64,000 bases of DNA from Cliona cf. orientalis (Eukaryota; Porifera; Demospongiae; Clionaida; Clionaidae), in assembly GCA_963930775.1 (NCBI GenBank), contig OZ005692.1, positions 6,310,135-6,374,134 on the forward strand, written 5' to 3'. The notes beneath the pieces are model-generated. The model saw only the letters and a list, made by a program, of their open reading frames with translations, made no database searches and had not been told where the DNA came from. The translations under genes and the position numbers were made by a program. Shown in pieces: positions 6,508 to 57,500 of the stretch. The stretch's first letter is position 1; the number at the start of each line of letters is the position of its first letter.

Positions 6508-9500
6508 TCATGAGTCCTTGTAGGTTGAATAAGCATCCCTGAAAGCAGCTTTGGTCTCTTGGACAAAAGTCTCTAAACTGATCTTGTCAAATTCACTGCC
6601 AGCTGGTTTCTGGTTGAACTTATTCAGTCTAAGAACATCCATGACTAGGAGATATTGGTTTAGAGAAATGTAGCCTTTCTTATTCAGGTCTAGCATAAAG
6701 AAAACTGACTTGATATTCGACTCCTCAAACATACACGGTGGGTCCATATTATCTGGGTCTGCTTTGGCCTTCAAAAGCCGCTTGATGTACTCCCTGATGA
6801 ACGCCTTGGGGTCTTCTGGTCTTTTGATGAACATTTCTGACAATATATTGTTAAAGAGCTCGATAATTTTGTGTTCCTTTAGATACTTGACCGCTTTCTC
6901 CTCAGGTGAGATGTACATGTCCGTGCTACTGGCTGGTGTGCTGTGCTCTTGTTCATCGGCACCTTCCTTGTCCATTTCTTTTCTCATGTTTACTGATAAT
7001 AATATTTCTCTCTTTTGGTGCTTGCCATGGTTACCCTTTGAAACTGTGTTAGCGCCTGTGCATGCGTTGGAGTTTTTTTCCAAATATGATGGCGGGTGAG
7101 AGGTTACGCTCAGCAGGCTTCTCTGAAGCTTGCCCATCAGGGCCAGTGGTGTCTGGTGCGTAAAGAGGAGGTGAGGCTCGATGGCAAAACCGTACTCTGA
7201 CTGGAGGCACTGGCTGAGCTGAACGGCTTTGACAGAGTTGCAGCCATACTCCCAGATGTTGGAATCGGGCTGTAGCTGTATTCCAAGCACGTCACTCATT
7301 CTGTCAGTTATTGTGTGAAGGCTCTTGCGATGCATCGGAACAGGCGATGTTGAGCTTTTTTGGGGTTTCAGCATCATTTGGTCCCTTCTTGGTGGGTGGA
7401 CTTTCTCTTCATCTTTTGGTTTAGGTGGCGATGTGTCGGAAGCAGCACTGGCTTGGATTTCATCCACTGTTGCCACTGCCGTTGCCCTGGACCAGTGGTA
7501 CACTACTTTCAGTGTTTTGTTGAGCAGCATGTGTTTACAGAGTGTGCGTTGCCTCTTTCCCAAGGTGGTGAGTGGTAGAGTACAAGGTTGAATAAAGACA
7601 ACTGCTTCCACTTGAACTTGAAAATCAAGGCTTATGATGGATGCAATCTTCATGGCCAGTGACTGAAACTCAACTGTAGAAAAGCCCTTTGGGTATCTCA
7701 GTTCAGCAACGTATGTGATTTGCATTTTGCTCCCACCTTTCAGCTGGCGTGCTTTCAACTGACATGCAACAGTTTTACCACATCTGAGTGCATAGAAGGA
7801 AGACTCTATTCTCATTTCAATATCGTTTGGGTGGATCTTTCTGCCATTGAATATGATAAGATCATGCAGTTGGCCTGAAATAAATACTTCTCCATTCTTG
7901 ATGAAGCCAAGGTCTCCTGTCCTCAGGTATGTCAAATTGGAGAAGTTATCAAGCCTAGCTTCAAATACCTTTTGTGTCTCTTCCTTCTTCTCCCAATATC
8001 CTATCGCTTTAGACTCAGAACTGACCCAAATCTCTCCCTCCTCACCAACTGGCACCTCCTTGAGTGAGTCAGGGTCCACAACATTGACTGTGACACCTGC
8101 AGTGGGCTGTCCACAGCTGATCCTCCCATTGGCGACAGTGGGGTCCTCCTTGTCCCACACTCCACACAGGTACATTGTGTGCTCTGCCAGCTCATATCCT
8201 GCATGTACAGTGTTCCTCTTTAAACCATATGGAGCCAGTGCAGATTCAAATCTCTGGATTGTCTCGGCATAGGCTGGCTCGGAGCCATTGACCAAGTAGT
8301 GGGCAGAGCTGAGATCCAGATTATCAGGAAATCCTTTCTTGAGGACCAACTCGAATGCATAGTTTGGAGCTTTTGCGTGTGTCCCCTTGTACATAGAGAA
8401 TACCTTCAGCCACAGTCCTGGGTTCTCTATGAATGTTGAAGGGGACATGAAGTAGCCAGTTCCTCCATGGTAGAGAGGTTGGAGGTAGCTGCAGATGAGA
8501 CCCATGTCGTGGAAATGAGGCAAGAAGCTGATTTCGACCATTGAACTATCGGTTTTCATGATCTTCTTCATCATTTCAAGGTTGTGAAGCAAAGAATTGT
8601 AACTCGGCATTACACCTTTTGGAGTACCTGACATGGTGTGTGTGTATGTGCGTATAATAATAATTGTGTGATCAAATTCCATACAAGACATTAATAAGGC
8701 TACGGGATAGTATTCCGCCCACACACTGAAATTATCACACACACCCATACAAGTGCAATACGTTTTATGCATGCGACCAATAAAGATTGTACCATGTTGG
8801 ACCGGAGATGGTCAAAAATAGTTGAACCGTGCATAAATCTTAGAGCCAAGAAAATTTTGCTGTGAGTTTCTTATCATAGCACTACTATTAGTCTAAGAGC
8901 AGTGCTCCACGTAGCGTCTTTTCCTGAAAAACTGTAGTTCTGTCTCGTGGTACAAGCTTTTGTACCTATTAGTTACCACTTTTTGAGCTACTCAAAGCTG
9001 TCCAACGTTTGCTTGCCTTTCAGCTAATCCACCGAATGAAAAACGCTCCATGCTGTGGCCCTGCACCATTGTGAAACCTATCGTTTTGATAGCGATGGTA
9101 TTTAGTAGCTCTATATATGCCTTTAGTTGGTATAAATAGATTTGGTTTTTGTCACGAATATTGAATTTCTTACCCAACCAAGAACCTCAACAATCCTAAC
9201 CTTAATGTACACAATCATCGTCGTCTGTTGTGTGTAGAGCGATAGTATGATCTTCTGTGTGTGTGAGTGTGTGTGTGTGTGCATTCTTGCATCTGCTTAT
9301 AATATTATAATTGAAAATTGGATATCCCCTGTCCAGAGTCCCAGCATAAAGGTCAAGCTTTGTTGTCCCCAGCTAGGGTGAATATGATATTATAGAAGAG
9401 GGCATATTGCAAAATATGTCCTACTAGTGGTAAGAACTTTGTACGGTGGCCGAGAAGGCTTTGTGTAGTTAAGTTATTTCTGTAGTCGTATTGATCACGT

Positions 9501-29753: not shown

Positions 29754-32732
<2,979 letters not shown>

Positions 32733-33659: not shown

Positions 33660-34961
33660 GGATCCGCAAAGTGAAAATTCGACCTCTGAATTTCGGACAA
33701 ATTACAACCGGTGCATCAAGGGCTCATCGGTACTTAATAAACCGCACCCCAATCCCCGTCCTTAGTGCTCCCTTTGGGGGAGAATTGCACGATTTGCCAC
33801 CGATCCGAGATTGAAGTGGGCGTGGTCATGGGACGGCGCAACACAAATTTATTCTAATTAAGCCAGCAGCTAGCCTAGGTACTAGCGCTGCAAATGTGCC
33901 CCTGTGTACCAGCAAAGCCCTTCGTTTCTGGTGCTGGTAGGGCTGTTTTATCTGTAGGTAAGTGAGAAATGGATAGATCTGGGGGGCATTGCGGTTAAAT
34001 GGGTGTGGCCTTTCGATCCCTACCACTTGCGTTTTATGGGATGTGGTCCACACATTGCATGTAGTGGATAAAATGAGATTCAGTGAATCCTTGCCATCTG
34101 GCTGGGAGTACTCTAGTTCTGTCTACTGATAGCGATGTCAAACCAATATTGAAACCTTAGAAATGCACTTCACTCTTGCATCTTACAGAGCCGAAAATTT
34201 CTGTAGATCATTTTGGTGAAAGTTTCATCTTTATATCTTGTTCCTGAGTGAAGTTATGATGTGAAGTATGTGTTGAATTCCCATGACTGGCCTTGTCAAT
34301 TCTTTATAGGAGTCCCTGCTATTGGTGTTCCGTGATAAAATTCCAGATTTCATTGTAAACTTTGCATCATAACTTCACTCAGGAAGAAGATATGAAGATG
34401 AAACTTTCACCAAAATGATCTGCAGAAATTTTCGGTTCCGTGAGATATGAGTGAAGTGCATTTCTAAGGTTTCAATGTTGGTTAAACATCACTTTCAATA
34501 GACAGAACTAGAGTGCTCCCAGCCAGATGGCAAGGGTTCACCGAATCTCATCTCATCTGCTACATGCAATATGTGGACCATATCCCATAAAACGCAAGTG
34601 GTAGGGATCGAATCGCCACACCCATTTAACCGCAACGCCCCCAGATCTCTCCATTTCTCACTTACCTACAGATAAAACTGCACTGCCAGCACCGAAAACG
34701 AAGGCTTTGCTGGTTCACAGGGGCGCATTTGTAGCGCTAGTACCTAGGCTAGGTGCTCGCTTAATTAGAACAAATTTGTGGTGTGTTGTCTCGTGACCAC
34801 GCCCACTTTATTCTCAGATCGGCGGCAAATCACGCAATTCTCCCGCAAAGGAAGATCTAAGGAGGGATTTGGGGTGCAGTTGATTAAGTACCGATGAGCT
34901 CTTGATGCGCCAATTATAATTTATCCGAAATTCGGAGGTCAAATTTTCACCTTGCGGACCC
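33660..34961. mobile_element. 1.3-kb foldback element with ~600-bp arms
   Basis: Left arm about 33660-34265 and right arm about 34366-34961 are imperfect reverse complements over their whole length: GGATCCGCAA with TTGCGGACC, TGAGTGAAGTTATGAT with ATCATAACTTCACTCA, and CATCTGGCTGGGAG with CTCCCAGCCAGATG. The spacer is about 100 bp. No transposase frame. It sits between the divergent promoters of R1 and R2. Confidence 0.88.
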
Positions 34962-35219: not shown

Positions 35220-36318
35220 ATGATGTCATTTACACGGGTTCTAGTTCTGTTTTTGTGCTACATTCAAGCAGGTACGTCGGCATAATATAAATTTCTATTG
35301 TGAGCTAGAGCTTATCTGCATGGTTGAATGATTTCTTGACGTGAATCAGGGAGCATAATAGTAGCTCCCAGGCATTAAATAGCGCCATAATATACGCAAT
35401 AGCTAGCTATGAGCAGTAGCTACCCTTTAATTGGATAATCCAATAATATTATGTACTATAATGATCTACTGTAACAGTACTATAGTGTTTGGAAACCCTC
35501 CATCCCCTTAGCCTTGAATACCCTTGCTCAGATGTCATAGGGACACTGGAATTTTGTTTATCTATAGCATAATGTCTAGCTAGTCAATTATTACATGATA
35601 TCAATATCGATGCATGACATGTACTACCGGTAGTATGTATACTCCTCAGCCATGCATGGAGAAGTCGAAGCTTATCAATGATAATGATTGAGTTCATGAT
35701 CATCAGAATTAATTATTGTGGTACTATCATCTTTTGATAATGAATTAAGCACTGGTGTAATATGCATTTGTGATCAATGACAACACAAAAAGGGGTGGAT
35801 ATTTGCCGCAGTTGGAATTCATACTATTAATTTTTGTGAGTAAAATTAATATTCATAATGCAAGACTATTATTCAGTGATAGTGTACATGGAATTCTAAT
35901 TCTATTCATCCTAACTTAGTAAGTCTATAAATTTTGTATTATTTGCGGATAGAAGTCCCCAGCGAGTTCATATTATTATAATGAATGAACACTTGACCAT
36001 CTCCCCAGTAGCTGCACAGTGTAATGGTGCATGTGGTAAAAGGTCGTCAATAGAATGCGTACACATCGATCGATGCTCGCCCCAGACATCATGGAGATGG
36101 CGTCTAAGATCGACTCTCAACCTTGATAGCGACAAGTTTCGATGCTTAAATCACAGAGACAAACTCGACAACACAGTATTCCTTCCGAAGTTCAGGTTGG
36201 TCACGCTGCTGCAGTCGCGCGCGGGCCAGCCCCTTGTGGCATCTAACAAGACCAAGATCATCCATCAATTCAATTGTATATGCCAGAACCAGATGTTCAA
36301 AAAAATGGCCATTTATCA

Positions 36319-36350
<32 letters not shown>

Positions 36351-39300
36351 AGTTTCCAGGGCTAGCTCGAGATTGCCTTGACCTCTCATCTTAGTTTAAG
36401 TATAAATCCATTCCATTTAGTAGCGCGCATTGCAGTGGCACGCTAATATTGCGTTATCTTGACAGTTACGTGATAGTGGGTGTGTACGGGTGCATTGTGA
36501 CAGTAATCAGATACGCCATTTTGTGATCTAATGCGCATGCTCAGAATGTGTTGCCATGGTGAAGTCATGTGATAGCGCCCTGGGCCCTAAGGCCCTCGAG
36601 GCCTCGGCGATTGCCATGCCTAGCCCTAGCGCTAGTCTAGCGCTCTGTTGGATCGATCAAGGATATGAAAGTGCAAGGCTCGAGGAACAGTAAGGCGCTA
36701 GTCATAAGCGAGCTACTCGCTAGCGCGTGCAGTGCTAGTGATCCGCTGGATAGATCATGGATATGAAGCCTGCGCAAGGCTCGAGGAGCTCAGCGGTAAC
36801 GTACAGATTAGCTGCTGCCAGAACTTGGTTTTCTCCCTAAACGAAAGAGTCTCATTGCTACATCGATATCGGCCGCCTAACGCTGCCTTCTTTGTCAACC
36901 TCCTCATAGGCATAGGAACGTAAGCCTTTAACGAGGGACGTGGCTAAGATTTTTGCGAAGATATGATCTTCATTCTTCTACACTGGAATATTGACAGCGA
37001 ATCATGTAAGATGAATTATTCTGAGAGCAATAAAAAAAAGAACAGAAACAAGTATAAAAACAATTGAATAAAATTGAAGGATGAAGTAGGGATGGTAGGA
37101 ACAAAAAGTACATAAACAAGATTTGTAGGGATAATCACATCCACTATACATCCCTACACTTGCTTTTGAGGGATGCAAGAACAGTAATATTATCTTTCAT
37201 ATGCAAGTCAAGAGTGCTTAACGAACAATTGAAGTTAGGTGCATGATAGTCGAGAAAAGCAAGTGTACGGATGTATAGTGGATGTGATTATCCCTACAAA
37301 TCTTGTTTATGTACTTTTTGTTCCTGCCATCCCTACTTCATCCTTCAATTTTATTCAATTGTTTTTATACTTGTATTATTATAAAACACAGTTATTACGA
37401 GAAGTCCCAGGTAGCACTATAAATAGGAGCATACAAGCTGTGAAATATAATACTTGTTGGCAATTATTTGTCACATACATAAGCATAATATTCATTGTTA
37501 TTCATAGGTTTCACTATAGATGGTAATCTTACAGTTCTTGATGACTGTGTTTGCAATGGAGGGAACGTGACATTCAGGTGTTCCGTTAGTGGTGGACTAT
37601 TTACTGTATGGAAGGGGAACCTCTTAGCCAGTGAATGTCAGGGATCAGGGATTACTTTGCGTCACTATGATTTTCCGTTTGGGAATGCAACAATGACATG
37701 TGGAAATGCCAAAGCTGTTGGTATTAGCGGTGGAGAAAGTAGCAATGTTTCTGAATTAACATTGACAGCAATTTCTGAAATATCTAATGGAAGATATATA
37801 CAGTGTGTTGTTGATGATGGAGAAATTTCAGTACCTGTAGGCAATGTCACATTAAACTTCTCAAAAGGTAAGTGTACAACAAGTTGATGAAATACATTGT
37901 CTGATCTACGTTTATTATGTATGCTGAGCAACTGCTAAATTTTATCTAGCAGATACTGCATCCTTGCCAGCACCAAATGATGTACGCTTATTTAAGGCTA
38001 ATCAAGGATCACTGATATTTAACTGGACTTCGCCATTCATGCACTGTTTGTCACTTAGCTATCATCTTGATGCAAACAATTGTGGTATATGTGAGGCCAA
38101 TTCAGATTTAACAGCTATTTGCCAAAATTTTACGTTACCAATGGTTTGTTCCTTTCAAATCCATTCTGTTGTCTGTGGGAATCTAACATCTGAAAATGCA
38201 AGCAAGCCAGTGAATATTATGATCAAAGGTTTGTCTGAGAATGCACTACTAAATTTCAGAGCCTCTCAGGAGTTATTTTGAGATAATTATGAAATTCTGC
38301 ACATGATGTACAAAAACTTGCTCTTTAATTCAGTGAATATATTAGAAGCTGCCTTTCTCTTTCTCTAATAAGATATATATAATAATATTATATAGACACG
38401 CACACAGAGTCCTTCCCTTTCCTTAATGCAGTTCCTGATGCTCCAAGTATTGAATGCAGAGCTCACTATCTACAAAAGAATGCAGAACTTATTGGACTGA
38501 CAACTACATTCTATCTTGAGGTTAGTTGTTAATGCCTAGGAAAGGGAGAAATTACACTAAGTCTTGTAATCATTCAGAGTGAATACAATATCTCCAATGA
38601 TCTTGGTGATTTTACCACTACTTCATACTTCATCAACATCTGCGATACTGCTGAGGTTCCACTTTCAGCTTGTCAAGATGGGGTTTGTAGCCACTATTTC
38701 AATGTATCATCATCTCCATGTTCTTTCTCTGTTACTGATGACATTACCGTATCAGTATTTGCAACAAATATGTTTGGTAGTAGTCCAAGATCATCAAAAA
38801 TTATTAAAGGTTAGTGGTAAACTGTTTAGAGTTTGCAGTATATATGTCTTTCCAAACCCTTTCTCAGGGAAAAATATTTTTGTAAGAGTTGACTTTCATT
38901 CGGATACGAGAACACTATCTTGCAAGTTTCTAGAGCCATTTAAGGATGGTCAGCTTTCCTGTTTTGCCAACATATTCTATGGTGAAAGCTGTCAGCAATA
39001 TCTAGGGAAATTTAGTGGCCAAGTAATTGAAGATACAAGTGCTATTGTTCTAAAATTAGAAGATGATATCGTTGATTACTGCTACAATATCACTGCTAGC
39101 ACTAGTAATAGCAATCTATCTTTGTCTATTAAGGGATTCTTCACTTACCGCAATGGTATGTTTGAGTCATTGTGTAGTGAGCTGCTTATAATGATATACC
39201 ACCTCTATAGCTCGCGGATCAAATACTGGGTTAATCACTGGAGTGACCATCACTGCACTTGTGGTGCTCGTGATGACTATAATTTGTGCAGCAATGCTTA

Positions 39301-42300
39301 TTTTATGCTACAGGAAGAAAAAAACTAAGGTCTGCTAGTTATATAACATAACAAATGGTACTTGGCAACTTGCACATTATTTTTACATGCTAGATTTTCC
39401 ATGCACATAATTTTATAACATTTAATAGATACTTATAACAAAAACAATGTATGCAGACTTTAAATTCATTAGTACTCATTCCGATATTTTTACTCAGGAA
39501 TCTGTGGACATAACTTTATCGGAAGCACTCCCTCATGTTAGCTAATTTGCAATTCTGGAGTCTAATACGATAATTTTTTTTACCCTTTTTCCCTCAGAAC
39601 GGAGTAGAAGATCCACAGAGTCTGACTGGTAATACACAAGATAGTGACAATTCTGTCGTGTAAGATATAGTTAAGGCCAATCCTTTTTTATACTTTTGCG
39701 CTGATTATGAGATTGTATTTTTATATTCTTAATTTTATTTCCCCAGTAATATGGATGACCTAAATGAAGTCACACACAGTTGCAAGTTGCATGACATTGA
39801 AGAAGATTGCTTTGTGATTGAATATGCAAGAAGAAAGTTTGGAAACCTTAATGTTCAGACAGGATGTGGATACTTTGAATTCACAAAATCTGAGTACATA
39901 CCACCAGAAGCACAAATTATTTTGATGAGTGAGGTACAATTAACATTACTAACATGAATTTTGGTGGCATAAAACATGCCATAACTATTCATTATTGATT
40001 TCAGGACAGCAAGTTTTATACCGGTTCAGGTGCTCGCCAACTGTTAGGAAACTATGATGATAAGGTCGAAGTATCTCCTCCAGATTTAGATGGTACTAAG
40101 TGGCAGAAAGTGTTCATTCAAACAAAACTAGACAACAAGAAGCTACTCAAAGACACAAAGTTCCTACATAATTGTAAGTTTCATCAGATTCTTATGCACC
40201 AACTAAATGGGAATTATCCATATCCTATCATGGTATTATTATAGTGCAATAGCACCTGCTCACGAGTAATGAAGCACCCATGTACCAATTTTCAAGGGTT
40301 GATGTGAGAACTTCCATACATTTTGTATCCTTGATATTAAGTGGCTGTAATCATGGGTCATGTTTAAGTGTCCATTAGCTAATGATTACCTGGGAGACTA
40401 CTGAGTATACATATACTATTCTGATTTTGAAGGTGAAGTCCTGGAACCATTTGATCTGAAGTTTCAAGTATATGACGTACATAAGGACTGTACAACACTT
40501 GAACTTGGAAAAAAGGAAATTCCTGGTTACAATCCATCGGTGGGACTAGGGTACTATGAATTCACTCAAGCTGAATACATATCTCTTAAGGCTAAAGTAA
40601 TGCTGATGAATCAGGTATGTACTGTACAAGCATAGCAAGCGTATAAACTAGCTATACTGTATTATTATACCTCTATTTAGTGTTATAGCACAGTACAGAT
40701 TTAGCATGGGACTATGCCCTGCTCACCCATAGACCTAGAGGTTACATCAAAGAAAAAATCAATGGCCAGGTCCAACTTCATAGCCATGGTAATGGGATTA
40801 ACCTCTAGGCCAACTCCCCCCACTTCACATTAATTTACTTGCCCAAGCCTAGGCCTGAGGGGCCAATCCTGATCGAAGCTAATTCTCGCTAACTATTATG
40901 GAGTACTGTAGATTTAAAATTGCTACGCAGATTGCCTTGACCCCACACACTTGTTTTGCAGCATGCAAGCTAGAGTATAGGCTTGGGGGAAAAAATCTGT
41001 CCTCTAGATTTATGAATAGACAATTTTTGTCATGCATGCTTCCTGCAATACAAACAATGATAATAATTATGATAATGGAAATTATCATCCCACGGACTCA
41101 AAATTCTAATTGTAGCGTGGACAATTATTCACTGGAAATGGTGCTCGGCACTTCATCAAAGCATGTGAAGGTGAGTATAGGGAGAATGAAAGAGTCAGCC
41201 CACCACTACTGGAAGGCACGCCATGGAAGCACGTGTTCATACAGACTGAGAATTATAACCGACACTTAATTGAAGGCACTAAATTCTTATATTGTAAGTG
41301 CAATAATACTTAATCAGCATTACAATTGATGTCGTATAAATAATAGGTGGAAAACACTTGGAAGTGGTTAATGACCAATTTGAAATGCTGGATGTGCCTA
41401 GTGACTGCAATGTAATGGATTTCGTGAGAGTTCATATCCCTGGATACCGTGCAGAATCAGGATATGGTTATCACGAATTCAAGAACAAAATGTACCTATT
41501 ACCAGATACAAAGCTAATGCTAATGGATAAGGTATGTTTGGAATGTTGTCACTAATTTGCTTGTAGGGTGTGGACATACGTATACAACTAGTCGTAAGTG
41601 TGTCATGATTAAATTTTATTATAGGATGGCAAAGTTTACAGTGGACCTGGCGCTCATCATGCCATTGGTATATCAGATTATTCACATGAAGTTGAGCCAC
41701 CAACATTGGAAAACTGGAAGCACATATTTGTCCAGATAAAATTTTCAGATACGAAGCTCCTTGAAGGCAGCAAGTTTCTGTATCGTGAGTAGTAATAGTT
41801 GCACGACCTTATTGGGGTGTATGAGATGCATAACATTATACTTCATTTTGGACCTTAATTGGCCATTGCCTAGCAATTAAGTTTTTTTAGGCATTTGATC
41901 ATGTATTTCATGCATCCCAATTAAGTCTTGCAACTACTTTATTGGCCCATGATGCCATTGGCCTACCCTATGATTATACCCACATCCCTCTGATTGCTGG
42001 TAATTTACCTTAAAACTTCGGTTGCTAGCAACTACTACTAAATTTTAAGTGTAGATAACAAGCACACTAAGTCTTAATTCTTGCCAGATTTACATAGTGA
42101 TCGATGTTTTATAGGTTATCGACCATTACGTAAAGTACCAAGTTCAATGTCAACTATTGTTGAGGTGAAAGGAACTGAAAAATGTAATCTACCCGATTTC
42201 ATACGTAAGGAAGCAGCTTTGCAAAATTTTAAACCTTCTCTGGGATATGGGTATCACCAATTCACAAAACCAGAGTTAATTTCACCAAATACTGAAGTAG

Positions 42301-43928
42301 TGCTGAAGAAAAAGGTATATGCCATAATATAACTGACTAAATTTAATATGCAGCTACACGATACTATACAGCATGTGTGTAAGTCCTGTTTCTAGCTTCA
42401 TTCCCAGGTTCTATTCCTAATTTTTTCAATGTTGCATGTTGAAAGTTCAATATTGGAAAAAGATCTGGAGATAAGAATTATTATAAAGGGCCCAGCTTGC
42501 ATAATAGCTATATTGAGTGATGTGTCAAGCTCAGTGAGTACTAATCACAGCCACATTTAAACACACAGAATGGTGAATTTGTAACTGGTCCTGGTGCTCG
42601 TCAGTTTCTTGGGCTGGGGAATGACGGCAAGGAAATCGCTCCACCCAATTTGAGCCAAACCGAGTATGAAAAAGTGTTTATTCAGTCCAGATCTTATGAT
42701 CAAAAACTAGACCCAGAAACAGAATTTTTATTACGTAAGTTTCGTACATGCAATAAAACAGCTTTCACGATTATACTTATGCTATTGTACTGCAGTAAAT
42801 TCAGGTGATTTTGAAGAAATTACTGACTATAAACTATTTGATGTTGAGGAAGACTGCTCTGTGGTCGAGTTTGGGAGTAAGATCATCACACCAGACTATC
42901 AAGTAAAATCTGGTTATGGTTTTTATGAGTTTGTTGTTCCAGAATACATTGCAAAAAATAAAAGAGTGATTCTGATTGACAAGGTATGCTCAAGCCTAAA
43001 AGTATTACACATATCTAAGAGGGACTGAATGTATTAACTCATTTTGGACCTGCAGGAGAATAAAATGTTTACCGGTATTGGTGCTCGCCGTTTCATTGGA
43101 GCTGTAGAGGAATATGATCAATTGGAAAAAATTAAGCCCCCTATAATGGATGCAACTTGTGAATGGAAGCATGTCTTTATCCAGAGCAACAGCTATAATC
43201 GAAAACTAAAAAAAGGAACCAAATTTCTTTACTGTAAGTTCTTAGTCATATTCTCAGCAACCATACATAACTGAAAGTAAAAGTGATGGCTGACGAGAGA
43301 AAGAGAGAGGGAGGGAGGGAGAGAGAGTACGTCTCAGATCTAGAGAGAGAGAGAGAGAGAGAATCGTCAGATTTTTCATTACCCAGGCTTTCTGCAGGAT
43401 AGGATAATGATTGTTATGTATTTCACATGCATGCAGGTACTACTTATCTTGATCAAGTCGATAATACAGCATCTGTACCGGAATATCATACAATAAATCA
43501 AGACATTGAAGTAATTAACTTCTTGAAACATCAATTGAATTTGACTCGCTACAGTCCTGAGGATGGTTGTGGATTTTATGAATTTTCCCAACCTGAACAT
43601 GTTTCAAAAGATAAAATGGTGATGCTATTGGACAAGGTAATTTGTTACTATCAAAGCTGCATGATTGTTGATATTTGTGTGCACAGCATGTACTGAAAGA
43701 TGTATTATAATGTTTTAATTACTTTAGAAGGATAAATTGTTCACTGGTCCTGGTGCTCGTCACTTCATAGGAGCAAAGCATGGATATGATGATCACAAAC
43801 AAATAGACCCACCAAATCTAATTGGTACAAGGTGGAAATGTGTGTTTATTCAAAGCAAAAGTTATGACAGGACTCTCAAAAGTGGAACAGTGTTTCTATT
43901 CTTTAGAAATGAGGTTTCTACTATGTAA
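35220..43928 (+). CDS. receptor R2: Ig/FN3 membrane protein with six tandem cytoplasmic modules
   Basis: Twenty exons, beginning 35220-35271, 37508-37867, 37953-38228, 38432-38520, 38578-38809, 38868-39155, 39211-39329, 39598-39659, then twelve module exons 39747-43928; 3672 nt, 1223 aa, all junctions in frame. Residues 1-17 are a signal peptide (VLVLFLCYIQA). 18-137 are Ig-like (CVCNGGNVTFRC), 138-229 FN3-like (LIFNWTSPFMHC), 230-336 a second FN3-like domain ending ITVSVFATNMFG, and 337-432 a further beta domain. The transmembrane helix (GVTITALVVLVMTIICAAM) is followed by YRKKKTK as stop-transfer. Residues about 494-1223 are six A+B modules; consensus features are GYGYxEF, VxLMxK, FTGPGARxFIG, PP, WKxVFIQ and GTKFLY. 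Exon 4 is 89 bp in both R1 and R2 and early phases match. R2 has no sushi exon. The module matches no domain I know; an adaptor or signalling scaffold is conceivable but not shown. Alternatives: a terminal exon at 39498-39545 and a NAGNAG acceptor at exon 3. Confidence 0.85.
36321..36352. repeat. (TTTC)n microsatellite in R2 intron 1
   Basis: Consecutive TTTC units within the 2.2-kb first intron of R2. An open frame at 35981-36352 runs into it and is not considered a gene. Confidence 0.85.
36637..36790. repeat. degenerate duplicated segment in R2 intron 1
   Basis: GGATCGATCAAGGATATGAA with CAAGGCTCGAGGA, and GGATAGATCATGGATATGAA with CAAGGCTCGAGGA, are two diverged direct copies about 85 bp apart. 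Origin unknown. Confidence 0.6.
37049..37373. mobile_element. MITE, GAAGTAGGGATGG inverted-repeat family, copy B
   Basis: Arms of about 130 bp: ACAAGTATAAAAACAATTG at the left and CAATTGTTTTTATACTTGT at the right, with ATCACATCCACTATACATCC and GGATGTATAGTGGATGTGAT inside. It lies in R2 intron 1, about 130 bp before the Ig exon. Confidence 0.9.
39498..39545 (+). other. candidate alternative terminal exon of R2
   Basis: A TTTTTACTCAG acceptor is followed, in phase 0 with the transmembrane exon, by codons for ESVDITLSEALPHVS and a TAA stop. Splicing to it instead of 39598 would give a short-tailed receptor without the six modules. It is purely predicted; the frame agreement could be chance. Confidence 0.35.
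39747..43928 (+). repeat. six-unit cytoplasmic module array of R2, each unit two exons
   Basis: A exons: 39747-39933, 40433-40614, 41347-41531, 42115-42314, 42796-42983, 43437-43636. B exons: 40005-40173, 41116-41293, 41625-41784, 42569-42734, 43056-43233, 43728-43928. A exons carry EEDC/PSDC-like, GYGYHEF or GCGYFEF and LMxK motifs; B exons carry FTGxGARxFIG, PP, VFIQ and KFLY. Every A ends in phase 0 and every B but the last ends in phase 1, so A+B pairs are frame-neutral units that can be gained or lost. Confidence 0.9.
43294..43363. repeat. purine-rich GA/GGGA simple repeat
   Basis: GAGA and GGGAGGGA runs in the R2 intron between module 5 and module 6. No other content. Confidence 0.85.
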
Positions 43929-53174: not shown

Positions 53175-54572
53175 GGTACGCGGAACGTGTTATCGAAGAT
53201 AACCGCATCATTATAAATGCACTTAGGGTACACGTCCCAGTTATGAGACACTAAACTTATGACTACTTTTACACAATTGTTTTAGGAATAATTTAAATGG
53301 TACATTTTTTAAGGACTGCCTATGGCCTCTAATACATATCAACTTCACTACTAATTTGCTATCATTAGTACTGAACATGTTATGGGACGCCTGTCCCTAT
53401 TATGAGATACCACCTTCCCACTGAAAAAGGCAGTTATCATGAGGTGTTTTAAGATGACGTCTTACCCAAGTTGGCATGCTTAAAGTGAGGCTTGAGTGTT
53501 AACCTCAAAAAAATAAGTAGTTTGATGTAACAAATTAGCAAATTCATAAAGCTGATATGCCAAAAACCGAAAATCATTGTTTCACTACATTTTTAAGCAA
53601 CGAAAACGTAAACCCATATCAAAATAAGGTGGATAGCAAATTCAACTTAGCCGGTAATAGTTCTAATTAATAGGCACTATATAAATATAATGACCCCCAA
53701 ACCAGAAACTTCCATCTTCGTTAATATGGATGTCCCATAATACCAACTGTCTCACAATACCTACATATACCCTATGTACCTTGCCCGATGTTCACGCTGC
53801 AGCTTGTCCCGCTGATCCTAGTCTATTGGGAACCAAATTCAATAGTACAACACTGTCAAGCGTAACTTTTGAGCCAACTCGATGGTCTCACCGTTGGAAA
53901 CTTCGTTGCTGCACGTCTGGTTAAACCTGCCATTCCCTCTGGCTCTGCTTTTCTATTAGAGAGTAGAGTTATGGTATGGATCAGCCGCTGCCTTTTATGT
54001 TGATATACGACCTGGAGTGCAATGTGCAAGTCTACCCTCGAGCCACACCCTTTAAAATTAGAATGGAAGGGTATGGCGTTGTGCGTGGGAAGCCATAATA
54101 ATTATAATTAGCGTGCAATCGGTTTTTAATTAATCAGGCGAGATTGACTCAGATTATCGTTTGGCTTTTGAATAAATGTCGGCCGGGGGAGGGGAGGAGG
54201 CTAGCCTCGCAACTCACAAACACAAACTGTAGTGGATCTACCGTATCTGCGCAGCGATATGCTTATTATTGACTACCATTACCGTCAGATTTACTACTCT
54301 CGCGTGTTCTGATCTGAGACCGAGATCGATCGGGCGATAGACGATGGACTTTCTACTCGAGCTCATGCACGCACGGGCACGGGGTCACCATGACACCATG
54401 GCCATGGAACCATAACAGGATGTGGTTAATTTGGGCTGGGCATCGTGCACGCTGATATGCACCATGCATGCACGGTTGCTCTTGCTTGACACCTGCCATT
54501 AATTTTGACTGACGAATGACTTCGGTCAAAGTGGAGCTGCTGAACTCTTCAGGGACTATAGCAAATTAGAGT
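53175..54572. other. intergenic region between divergent START and Notum-like genes
   Basis: No gene found. It would contain both 5' regions. Phrases such as TATGAGATAC, CAGTTATGAGACAC and CCCATAATACC recur, perhaps a decayed repeat. The frame at 53730-53924 has no recognised similarity. Confidence 0.6.
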
Positions 54573-57500
54573 ATGAAAGCAATAAATGTGGTAACTATAA
54601 TGCTGATGGTGGGCTTACCATGTCTATCATGGCTACCAATTGGTGATGGCCAGCAAGGAGAGGTTCCTCGAGCTCGGCGGCCCACCAGTGCAAAGATGAT
54701 ATGGGTATCTGCCTCCAACTCTACTGCTCTCTGCAATGATTTCACTAGAGCCGGCTTCTTCATACGTCGAAACACGGCCTCCAACAATTGGATAGTGTTT
54801 CTGGAGGGAGGAGGACTCTGCTACAACACAAACACGTGCAACAAAAGATTCTTTGTCAGCAAGGTAGGATTTAAGTATATTTTTCTGTGGTTAATATATT
54901 TCATATCCAGATTCGCAAGCAATTCACACTTCAAAATAGATCATTTTCTGCTTCCATGGCATGGGATGAAACTGTTCTGCAAGGGCAAGATCCAGCAAAA
55001 GTAATCTCACCACTCATGTCATCTATGCAGTGTTTCGATAATGTTCTTGAATACTTTCCGAGTGGACTTAGTTCATCAATTGAAGGAAGGGACATCCTGG
55101 ATATTGATCCTGTGAAGAATCCACTCTTTTATGACTACAACCACGTGGTAGTGCCTTACTGTAGTAGTGATGTTTGGCTAGGAGAAACAAGCAACACAGA
55201 AGCTGTCAAGGATGGCACTTCCCAGTGTGACTGTTTAACACCAGCTTCTGTTTCAAATCCTTGTTTCCACTTCAATCCCCGAAGTCCAAACCTTCAATTC
55301 ACCTTTCGTGGCAAGATCATCTATCAGAGTGTAATTGAGCAGCTGTTGACTGATCATGACATGAGTGAAGCCGGGAGAGTGATCCTAGCTGGATCTAGCA
55401 GTGGTGGAGTTGGAGTCATCAACCATGCCCAGTGGACTCGTGATAAATTCGCTGATTCAAGTATCCAACTGATGGTAGTGTCAGACTCCTCTTGGTTCAT
55501 TAATTTTCAAGGTGGTATTGATGAAGTGTTCAATGGTGGGATGGTGAAGTCTCCTACTTCTACTTCTCCAAGTTTGTTTGAAATTTTGCAGTCTCAGAAT
55601 ATTGCTTGTAATGACACAAGTCGATTGGGTTATCCTTGTTGCGTCTCAGCTCAGTGCATCTTAACACAGCAAGGTAGTGATGGAGAATTGCAGTACTACC
55701 CTAAAGATACTCCAACATTTGCTCTGTTTAGCATCTACGATATCTATCTGCTGGCCCCAGCATTACAAACAGCAGCTGATATTAATTCCGCACAACAGTC
55801 AGTGAACATGGGAAACTTTGATGCTGGAATTGATGTAGTGATAGACTTCCTGAGGGTTTCTGGTGAGTATGGAGGAACGATGAACTACACACTGGATGTG
55901 GTCACTGCCCAGGTGGGTATAGATTTGCATGTGTATTTTAAGAAGATCCAAAGAAGATTACTATGGGGGGTGGATAGTGTCAAAAGTACAGTCAGTGTCA
56001 ACTGGAGGGGGTACTTTTCTGTTGGAGGATACCAGTTTTTGTGGAGGAGTGCGTTTCGATCTCGAGGAGGGGGTCTAGTGCATCCGTAGTAGGGGTGCAT
56101 TTTTGATCTCGAGGAGGGGGTCAACCTCATCTGCAGTAGGGGGTCATACTTCGCTGGGGGAGGGGTGGATTTTGATCTCGAGGAGGGGGTCTACCTCATC
56201 TGGAGTAGGGGGGGGGTCACACACTTTTGCTGGAGGATCAAGGAGGGGTGTGTTTTGATCTCAAGGAGGGCTCTAGTTCATCTGAAGTAGGGGGTGATAC
56301 TCTGGTTGGACGAGGATGCATTTGATATCGAGGGGCCGACTACTGAACGGAATATTATTGTGGGTGTGGCACATTTTTTACGCATGCGCAAATCCGTTAA
56401 CATTATTAATTTTTAGTCTTCGCGCTACGTGCTGGAACCATGACGGTACGGAACGTGTGCTGGGAAGCAAGTCGCTTGAAAATGAGTTGTTATGGACTAG
56501 TATAAATGTGCTGGTGGTGTCTCCTGTCGTACAAATTAAAGGTTCAATAATTGTATGTGCTACGAACAATTTTAATGTCAAATTACCAATTAATATCTGT
56601 GCTTCATTGAATAAATGTAGCACCTTTGTACAAGAGACACCAGTAATACATCTACAGCAGTCCAGAATCACGCCACTACGTAGCTTCCCAGCCTATAGAC
56701 CCATTGCACGTGACGTCATCATTGAGTTTTATTGCAGTATACGGAAAATTAACGCCCACGCTTGGAGGACAACGCGGATTTTGTCTATGGCAAAATGTAC
56801 AGAGGTCGTGTTTGCAGCTAGTTTGTCGACAAACGAAGGCTCCGCTCACTTGCGCCTTACAGTATGTTAAATAGTACCGGGTGCGCTATGACATATTTCT
56901 GTGATAGCTGGAACTCTGCTGGAGGGATGGCATAAACGGTGAGAAACACTGCTGATTAGTACAATCCTCCATAGTGGTTGTCCTCCAATGCGGCTTTTGC
57001 GCGCGCCGCCGAGTAACGTAACCGGAGTTATACGGATTCGTGCAACGGGTCTCAAATTCAAAGTAGTCTCGTCCCCAGACCCCACCTCCTTTTGGGGGTG
57101 GGGTCTGGGGACGAGACTAAATTCAAAGCTAGCTCACAGGCCATGCCACGTGATGCGAGGAATTTTTATGCGCATGCACGAAATGTGCCACACCCACATA
57201 ATTATAATACACACAAACGGCATCTATCGGCAACTGCTAGCTCCACTCCATTGCTTCGAATATGCCCCTCCTCCAGTGGAGGTAGCAGACCCCTCGAGAT
57301 CAAAATGTACCCCTTGTCCAGCGAAAGTATGATCCCCTCTTCGCGATCAAAACACACCCCTCCTCCAGCAGAGTATGACCCCCTACTCCAGATGAGCTAC
57401 ACCCCCTCCTCGAGATCAAAACGCACCCCTCCTCCACAAAAAGCGGTATCCTCCAACTGAAAAGCACCCCCTCCAGTCGAAACCACCCCCCTCCTCAGAG

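Follow-up and report, generated by a model that had tools for sequence, protein, structure and literature searches.

A family of sponge receptors whose tails seem to be built from repeated relatives of a bacterial vWA-protein C-terminal domain

Animal recognition receptors usually signal through a few types of inside domain, namely kinase, TIR, death-fold, and ITAM. Receptors combining immunoglobulin (Ig) domains with TIR are known in sponges, as described in PMC6208332, and bacteria and animals share homologous immune domains according to PMC8195603. Here we describe R2, a gene located in a 64-kb window (the whole stretch of DNA that was analyzed) of chromosome 4 (C4, positions 6310135-6374134) of the sponge Cliona cf. 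orientalis. Like the Ig-TIR receptors, R2 combines an Ig-type ectodomain, a membrane pass and an inside protein domain, but its tail consists of repeated modules related to the partner of vWA domains in bacterial proteins and has no TIR. Animal receptors with an inside domain of bacterial relationship are known; this domain and its repeated layout are unnamed in the literature found. No description of the module or of the repeated tail was found in a literature search that covered papers outside subscription. The R2 family suggests that animals have a kind of receptor tail not described before.

The R2 model consists of 20 exons at positions 35220-43928 (+) of the window, which form one open frame of 1,224 amino acids with the sole stop at the end. 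All 19 introns follow the GT-AG rule. The initial annotation, made from the DNA letters alone, had claimed a single frame through all R2 exons, and this was confirmed in that the 20 exons join without an inner stop. The 3′ end of exon 8 was placed by hand. Of the whole model, exon 1, separated from exon 2 by a gap of 2.2 kb, is placed with the least confidence. The features are as follows.

35220-35271 (+), exon 1: start codon and signal peptide, with a hydropathy peak at residue 3
37508-37867 (+), exon 2: Ig-like ectodomain (Ig_2 sub-threshold; blastp homology to the neighboring gene R1 and other receptor reading frames)
37950-38228 (+), exon 3: FN3-like ectodomain (gene model, blastp)
38432-38520 (+), exon 4: ectodomain (gene model)
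38578-38809 (+), exon 5: ectodomain, FN3-like by eye (gene model, blastp)
38868-39155 (+), exon 6: ectodomain (gene model, blastp)
39211-39329 (+), exon 7: predicted transmembrane helix and RKKKTK stop-transfer (19-residue hydropathy peak of 2.95 from residue 447)
39598-39659 (+), exon 8: juxtamembrane linker; the next intron opens with an in-frame TAA
39747-40173 (+), module unit 1: exon 9 (39747-39933) and exon 10 (40005-40173) (gene model, unit alignment, as for all units)
40433-41293 (+), module unit 2: exon 11 (40433-40614) and exon 12 (41116-41293)
41347-41784 (+), module unit 3: exon 13 (41347-41531) and exon 14 (41625-41784)
42115-42734 (+), module unit 4: exon 15 (42115-42314) and exon 16 (42569-42734)
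42796-43233 (+), module unit 5: exon 17 (42796-42983) and exon 18 (43056-43233); matches phrog_26613
43437-43928 (+), module unit 6: exon 19 (43437-43636) and exon 20 (43728-43928, including the stop)

Exons 9-20 (39747-43928, +) are twelve exons that translate into six homologous units of about 115 residues, each encoded by an A exon and a B exon. This arrangement had been proposed from inspection, and both the unit alignment and a held-out profile test bear it out. The units are 32-42% identical to unit 1 and share 14 invariant columns. When a profile was built from five units, the left-out unit scored 91-128 bits, against a best score of 10.0 when every unit was shuffled 1,000 times, which places the repeat far beyond chance. 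In units 2-5 the outer introns are in phase 1 and the A/B intron is in phase 0. The further proposal that the exon pairs are frame-neutral holds for units 2-5 (360, 345, 366 and 366 nt) and fails for unit 1 (356 nt, with phase 2 entry) and for unit 6, which holds the last coding exon.

To locate the membrane pass we used hydropathy. The only strongly hydrophobic stretches of R2 are the N-terminal signal and residues ~447-465, and by this measure the protein has a signal peptide, one transmembrane helix and a basic stop-transfer sequence. The ectodomain contains 21 cysteines and 14 N-glycosylation sequons in 423 amino acids, the tail 14 cysteines and 2 sequons in 757 amino acids. These statistics fit a type I membrane protein and agree with the earlier placement of the repeated module C-terminal to the membrane helix; a similar layout recurs at ten further loci (less clearly at two). 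Pfam matches to Ig and FN3 domains were all sub-threshold, with Ig_2 matching part of R2 at E 0.14 and fn3 matching part of a paralogue at E 0.032. By blastp, the ectodomain is homologous to other sponge receptor open reading frames (ORFs) of Ig/FN3 type. A Pfam scan of 731 amino acids of the tail gave no family of any kind at E ≤ 1, TIR included, in line with the initial annotation, which had recognized no TIR, death-fold, kinase, SH2, Ig or vault repeat there. Nor was a vWA domain with its metal site (MIDAS) found in the R2 polypeptide (Pfam vWA, E ≤ 1), whereas a sponge gene on chromosome 8 does have one.

The view that the module is unrecognised was not supported in that form. Unit 5 alone matches the PHROG family phrog_26613, of unknown function, with E 6.5e-10 (residues 10-122 on profile positions 240-343 of 345), a match that covers the C-terminal third of the family and is independent of the wider alignments. 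A profile of the six R2 units found 26 matches among 428 candidate proteins; by eye, 5 of these belong to the bacterial vWA-tail type, and the other 21 resemble ORFs of sponge exons in other assemblies. With a wider profile made from those 5 and two R2 units, 1,668 of 3,272 candidates matched, not all of which are proved by the module alone because the first profile row includes part of the vWA C-terminus. Among the 120 matches listed from this search, many are ~354 amino acids long and have a vWA domain (PF00092/PF25106) preceding the module. Where named, the matches are mostly called hypothetical protein or vWA protein, from organisms including cyanobacteria and a Myxococcaceae bacterium; one listed record is from a nematode (Aphelenchoides avenae, origin unchecked). 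By sequence homology, the module corresponds to the C-terminal ~110 residues of ~354-residue vWA proteins from cyanobacteria, myxobacteria and phages, and the R2 match is significant over the domain. Bacterial VWA_4 proteins such as P0108, recorded as a hypothetical protein of Kalymmatonema gypsitolerans NIES-4073, and phrog_26613 are homologous to the R2 unit over its whole length, with the same core motifs GxGFYEF, VFIQS and L..GT.FLY. The bacterial proteins have one module after the vWA domain and no membrane helix noted, whereas R2 has six modules, no vWA match, and a receptor in front. Judged from the phrog_26613 match and the profile matches to bacterial vWA C-termini, the module is an old and widespread yet unnamed domain.

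Searches of Pfam, NCBIfam, PADLOC and PDB sequences returned no named family for the module. Weak matches below cut-off to DUF7123 and DUF6386 (two homologues) and to NF011497 (unit 5) were set aside, as were two PDB rows obtained with the full-length bacterial profile (E 0.69 and 0.82). Structure modeling covered the bacterial module and the full-length cyanobacterial protein, the R2 unit being placed by sequence and not by fold, and Foldseek searches gave weak matches only. The full-length cyanobacterial vWA-module model had a predicted local distance difference test (pLDDT) value of 92 and a predicted template modeling (pTM) score of 0.90.

Of 143 pattern matches in bacterial genomes, 109 could be confirmed. 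The 80 highest-ranked comprise 66 from cyanobacteria, 12 from myxobacteria, one from Planctomycetota and one labelled Comamonas, a taxon mix biased by ranking on likeness to a Rivularia query. Viral contigs gave 113 matched stretches at 42 loci. There were 47 annotated phage records, most of the 40 listed matching in the vWA part only, and 19 plasmid records, some with a match to the module part only. The bacterial proteins resemble the MoxR-vWA ternary conflict systems in being bacterial vWA proteins, many of them from multicellular bacteria, and the available portion of the paper describing those systems makes no mention of the module (PMC7159879). In four phage and plasmid neighborhoods, where most genes are hypothetical, no MoxR is annotated beside the vWA gene, the scope of this check being those mobile elements and not bacterial chromosomes. 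A conflict operon was considered and set aside for these elements, as the four neighborhoods have no visible shared neighbor.

The genome searched comprised 216.8 Mb in 149 contigs, that is, the odCliOrie1.1 assembly (217.17 Mb in 307 scaffolds according to PMC12639293) without some small pieces. When it was searched with four module queries and the module part of the full bacterial protein, 72 stretches at 29 loci including R2 matched (E ≤ 0.01). These counts are lower bounds; widening the joining gap from 3 or 4 kb to 6 kb reduces the number of loci from 29 to 27. The vWA gene and a lone module on chromosome 8 (C8) account for two of the 29. There seem to be about two dozen such receptor genes in this sponge, judged from these matches.

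We read ten further receptor loci (L080, L082, L086-L090 and L095-L097) and laid out the ORFs of seven (L080, L082, L086, L090 and L095-L097). At all ten, the most hydrophobic segment in the 1.5 kb preceding the first module (19-residue mean 2.5-3.9) lies 157-332 bases before that module, and at nine the upstream ORFs resemble the R2 ectodomain (E ≤ 0.01). Three paired modules were found in each of L080, L082, L095 and L096, five in L097, and two or three in L086-L090. In this last group some halves stayed unpaired, and both L088 and L089 contain two genes. Module number thus differs between paralogues, with two to six detected per tail and the six of R2 being the most. A cluster of module loci lies at 3.19-3.33 Mb of C1, where the first module is often one exon, with further loci up to 4.43 Mb. 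When 18 ORFs from other assemblies were compared with R2, the exon part agreed at 972 of 1130 residues and the flanking intron translation at 96 of 189; the ORFs had been picked by module likeness, which biases them to exons, and P0002, P0004 and P0019 were omitted from the original 21 as more distant. The genome contains 36 TIR matches, none at a module locus. Fifteen TIR-domain matches are clustered at C8:245391-733196, perhaps a separate TIR gene array.

The C8 vWA gene (L084 and L085, - strand) resembles cyanobacterial proteins over nearly its whole length. Six stretches from 5041154 down to 5030656 (-) match residues 5-350 of the cyanobacterial query, residues 224-234 being unmatched. The gene carries the metal-site motif DTTGS; MIDAS function is treated in PMC7159879. 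The gene also has introns: a phase 1 intron precedes module exon A, and the A/B intron is in phase 0 (by eye), as in R2 units 2-6. The A/B intron lies at an aligned place; it follows Lys in the C8 gene and in four of the six R2 units, Glu in unit 1 and Gln in unit 2.

A tree of the modules was computed from 73 rows and 119 columns, with 21 forks left open and a midpoint root only. Receptor modules were entered as joined aligned half-stretches and not as full exons; 9 of 113 hidden Markov model stretches were unpaired and dropped (six in L086, L088, L089 and L090, plus P0015, P0022 and P0026), and row L092, labelled 'vir', is a Streptomyces plasmid. A starred branch with support 98/88 separates all 35 receptor modules from the remaining rows, among which the sponge vWA module comes first. 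The fork after it (87/78) holds bacteria, phages and the lone sponge module C8:5044k. The shared intron phases together with the adjoining tree position suggest that the receptor modules arose by exon shuffling from the resident vWA gene. The units of R2 and the modules of the receptors C4:801k and C10:7768k form one subfamily (100/98) in which they are intermixed, with no starred fork inside. This intermixing hints that the module array may predate the split of the three genes. The lone module near the vWA gene is a one-exon ORF of 140 codons (C8:5044683-5045036, L085:7768-8187, -). It groups weakly with phage and bacterial modules (84/82) and may represent a retrocopy or an independent gene.

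Residue conservation was compared in 58 of the 73 rows (23 vWA-type, 12 of the R2 subfamily and 23 other receptor modules; 14 phage and plasmid rows and the lone C8 module were omitted), with numbering of the P0108 module. Gly37, Phe43, Phe96, Gln98, Leu106 and Leu113 are common to all three sets, in which Glu42, Glu47 and Arg104 are also frequent. The module fold seems to be kept in the receptors, and part of its surface may have changed.

We favor, with slightly more confidence than doubt, a reading in which R2 is a type I receptor with a vWA-derived module tail that was copied from the resident gene and serves in multivalent docking. Six tandem copies of a ~110-residue β-rich domain would make up the cytoplasmic tail. 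In the sponge lineage, a receptor gene of Ig/FN3 type would have acquired the two module exons as copies from the resident vWA gene; these exons would then have multiplied and spread with the receptor family to about two dozen loci. The ectodomain may recognize self, a symbiont or a microbe. The tail would act as a non-enzymatic array whose units all dock the same cytosolic partner side by side, and clustered receptors would thereby form a signaling assembly of high avidity. A non-enzymatic multivalent array is preferred because the tail contains no enzyme family and unit number varies among paralogues. The open frame, the transmembrane layout, the homology, the paralogues and the shared intron phases are read directly from sequence; expression as one transcript, the cytoplasmic side of the tail, the direction of copying, ligand recognition, docking and signaling are what the reading would add.

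Several points weigh against it. That the transmembrane and module exons of R2 lie in one transcript is something we infer from the gene model. Unit 1 is entered at phase 2 and not, like the other units, at phase 1. The module tree is short, with many open forks. At L089 and L097 the top segment barely exceeds another one within the 1.5 kb (2.50 versus 2.46 and 2.66 versus 2.61), which makes these two transmembrane calls less clear. The C10:7768k paralogue has no R2-like ectodomain match, only Ig-like ORFs by eye. In two of the 18 outside ORFs the intron flank is about as conserved as the exon (P0001, 28/34; P0014, 22/22). A tandem-tail profile found no protein database match at E ≤ 0.001 with 7,997 candidates scored, which is not proof of absence in other animals. 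Finally, most receptor units have lost Lys45 and Asn103, two residues that are almost invariant among vWA-type modules, and Lys53 is kept less in the R2 subfamily (0.42) than in other receptor modules (0.74); with these residues lost, the ancestral activity of the module may not persist in the receptors.

The main alternative assigns the receptor units a different role. In the chromosome 8 protein the module would pack on the vWA domain, and the receptor units would be a partner site for that vWA-plus-module protein, engaging it in trans and releasing or recruiting it; we consider both parts of this proposal possible, though rather unlikely. The confident cyanobacterial full-length model is what a fixed vWA-module arrangement would predict, the sponge gene retains DTTGS, and its module adjoins the receptor modules in the tree. 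On the other hand, pTM alone is not evidence of a specific interface, and the receptors have lost some of the residues conserved in vWA-type modules. It is less probable still that the tail is an enzyme or a ligand-binding (e.g. nucleotide-binding) array instead of a docking scaffold. Gln98, Arg104 and Glu42/Glu47, common to vWA-type and receptor modules, could mark a site, but the tail matches no enzyme family and Foldseek matches are weak, findings with which an unknown enzyme would still be compatible.

We think it improbable that the module exons form a separate cytosolic gene, starting with MDDLNEV in exon 9, downstream of a short receptor. An in-frame ATG does occur two codons into exon 9, and the TAA directly past exon 8 would permit a short-tailed receptor, but the frame is preserved through exons 7, 8 and 9 and a hydrophobic segment precedes the first module at all ten further loci, two of them less clear. 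A recent horizontal transfer by which the receptor gene received the module directly from a bacterium would accord with the abundance of the module in bacteria and phages, but is already disfavored and highly improbable given the internal phase-0 intron at an aligned place in receptor units and the sponge vWA gene and the position of that gene beside the receptor modules in the tree. Apart from these alternatives, retention of intron 8 (window 39598-39760) would place a TAA right after exon 8; a short-tailed R2 isoform is conceivable, since reading beyond exon 8 into the intron meets this stop at once.

R2 has a divergent neighbor, R1 (about 29757-32527, -), with which it forms a head-to-head receptor pair with unlike tails. 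The ectodomain ORFs of the two genes are homologous (E down to 2e-11), whereas R1 differs in having a Sushi-like domain and a short tail with the tyrosine motifs YEEINL and AYGPV. The Sushi-like stretch scores 20.9 bits against a cut-off of 20.7, and HRM also matches there, below its own cut-off. No module match was found in the 64-kb window outside R2. A long (CT/GA)n microsatellite lies beside an exon of R1 (31400-31730), where length changes could affect splicing. Two fold-back repeats resembling miniature inverted-repeat transposable elements were noted by eye, at 34000-34630 between R1 and R2 and at 37120-37380 in R2 intron 1. Elsewhere in the window, a 767-codon ORF (6511-8811, -) resembles an adenylate-forming enzyme with a carrier-like region, and ORFs at 54570-56086 (+) resemble a hydrolase of the Notum/pectin-acetylesterase type, in both cases by motifs.

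The preferred reading, a receptor tail of repeated vWA-derived modules, would mean that a sponge gene family with about two dozen clustered loci uses a repeated relative of bacterial and phage vWA tails as its inside domain. It suggests that, inside a single genome, a domain moved from a soluble protein of bacterial type to the tail of a receptor, a move to which the intron phases bear witness. The work also gives a first handle on a domain that is unnamed in the family libraries searched and has up to 1,668 relatives in one search. More tentatively, and as a possibility we rate well below an even chance, sponges may have a private form of intracellular signaling, in which a large receptor family with clustered genes would carry arrays of a domain taken from an ancient vWA partner protein. 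Signals would pass through that vWA protein and unit number would tune avidity, alongside signaling by TIR and kinase receptors. For the study of recognition and allorecognition in sponges, the family provides a concrete set of genes.

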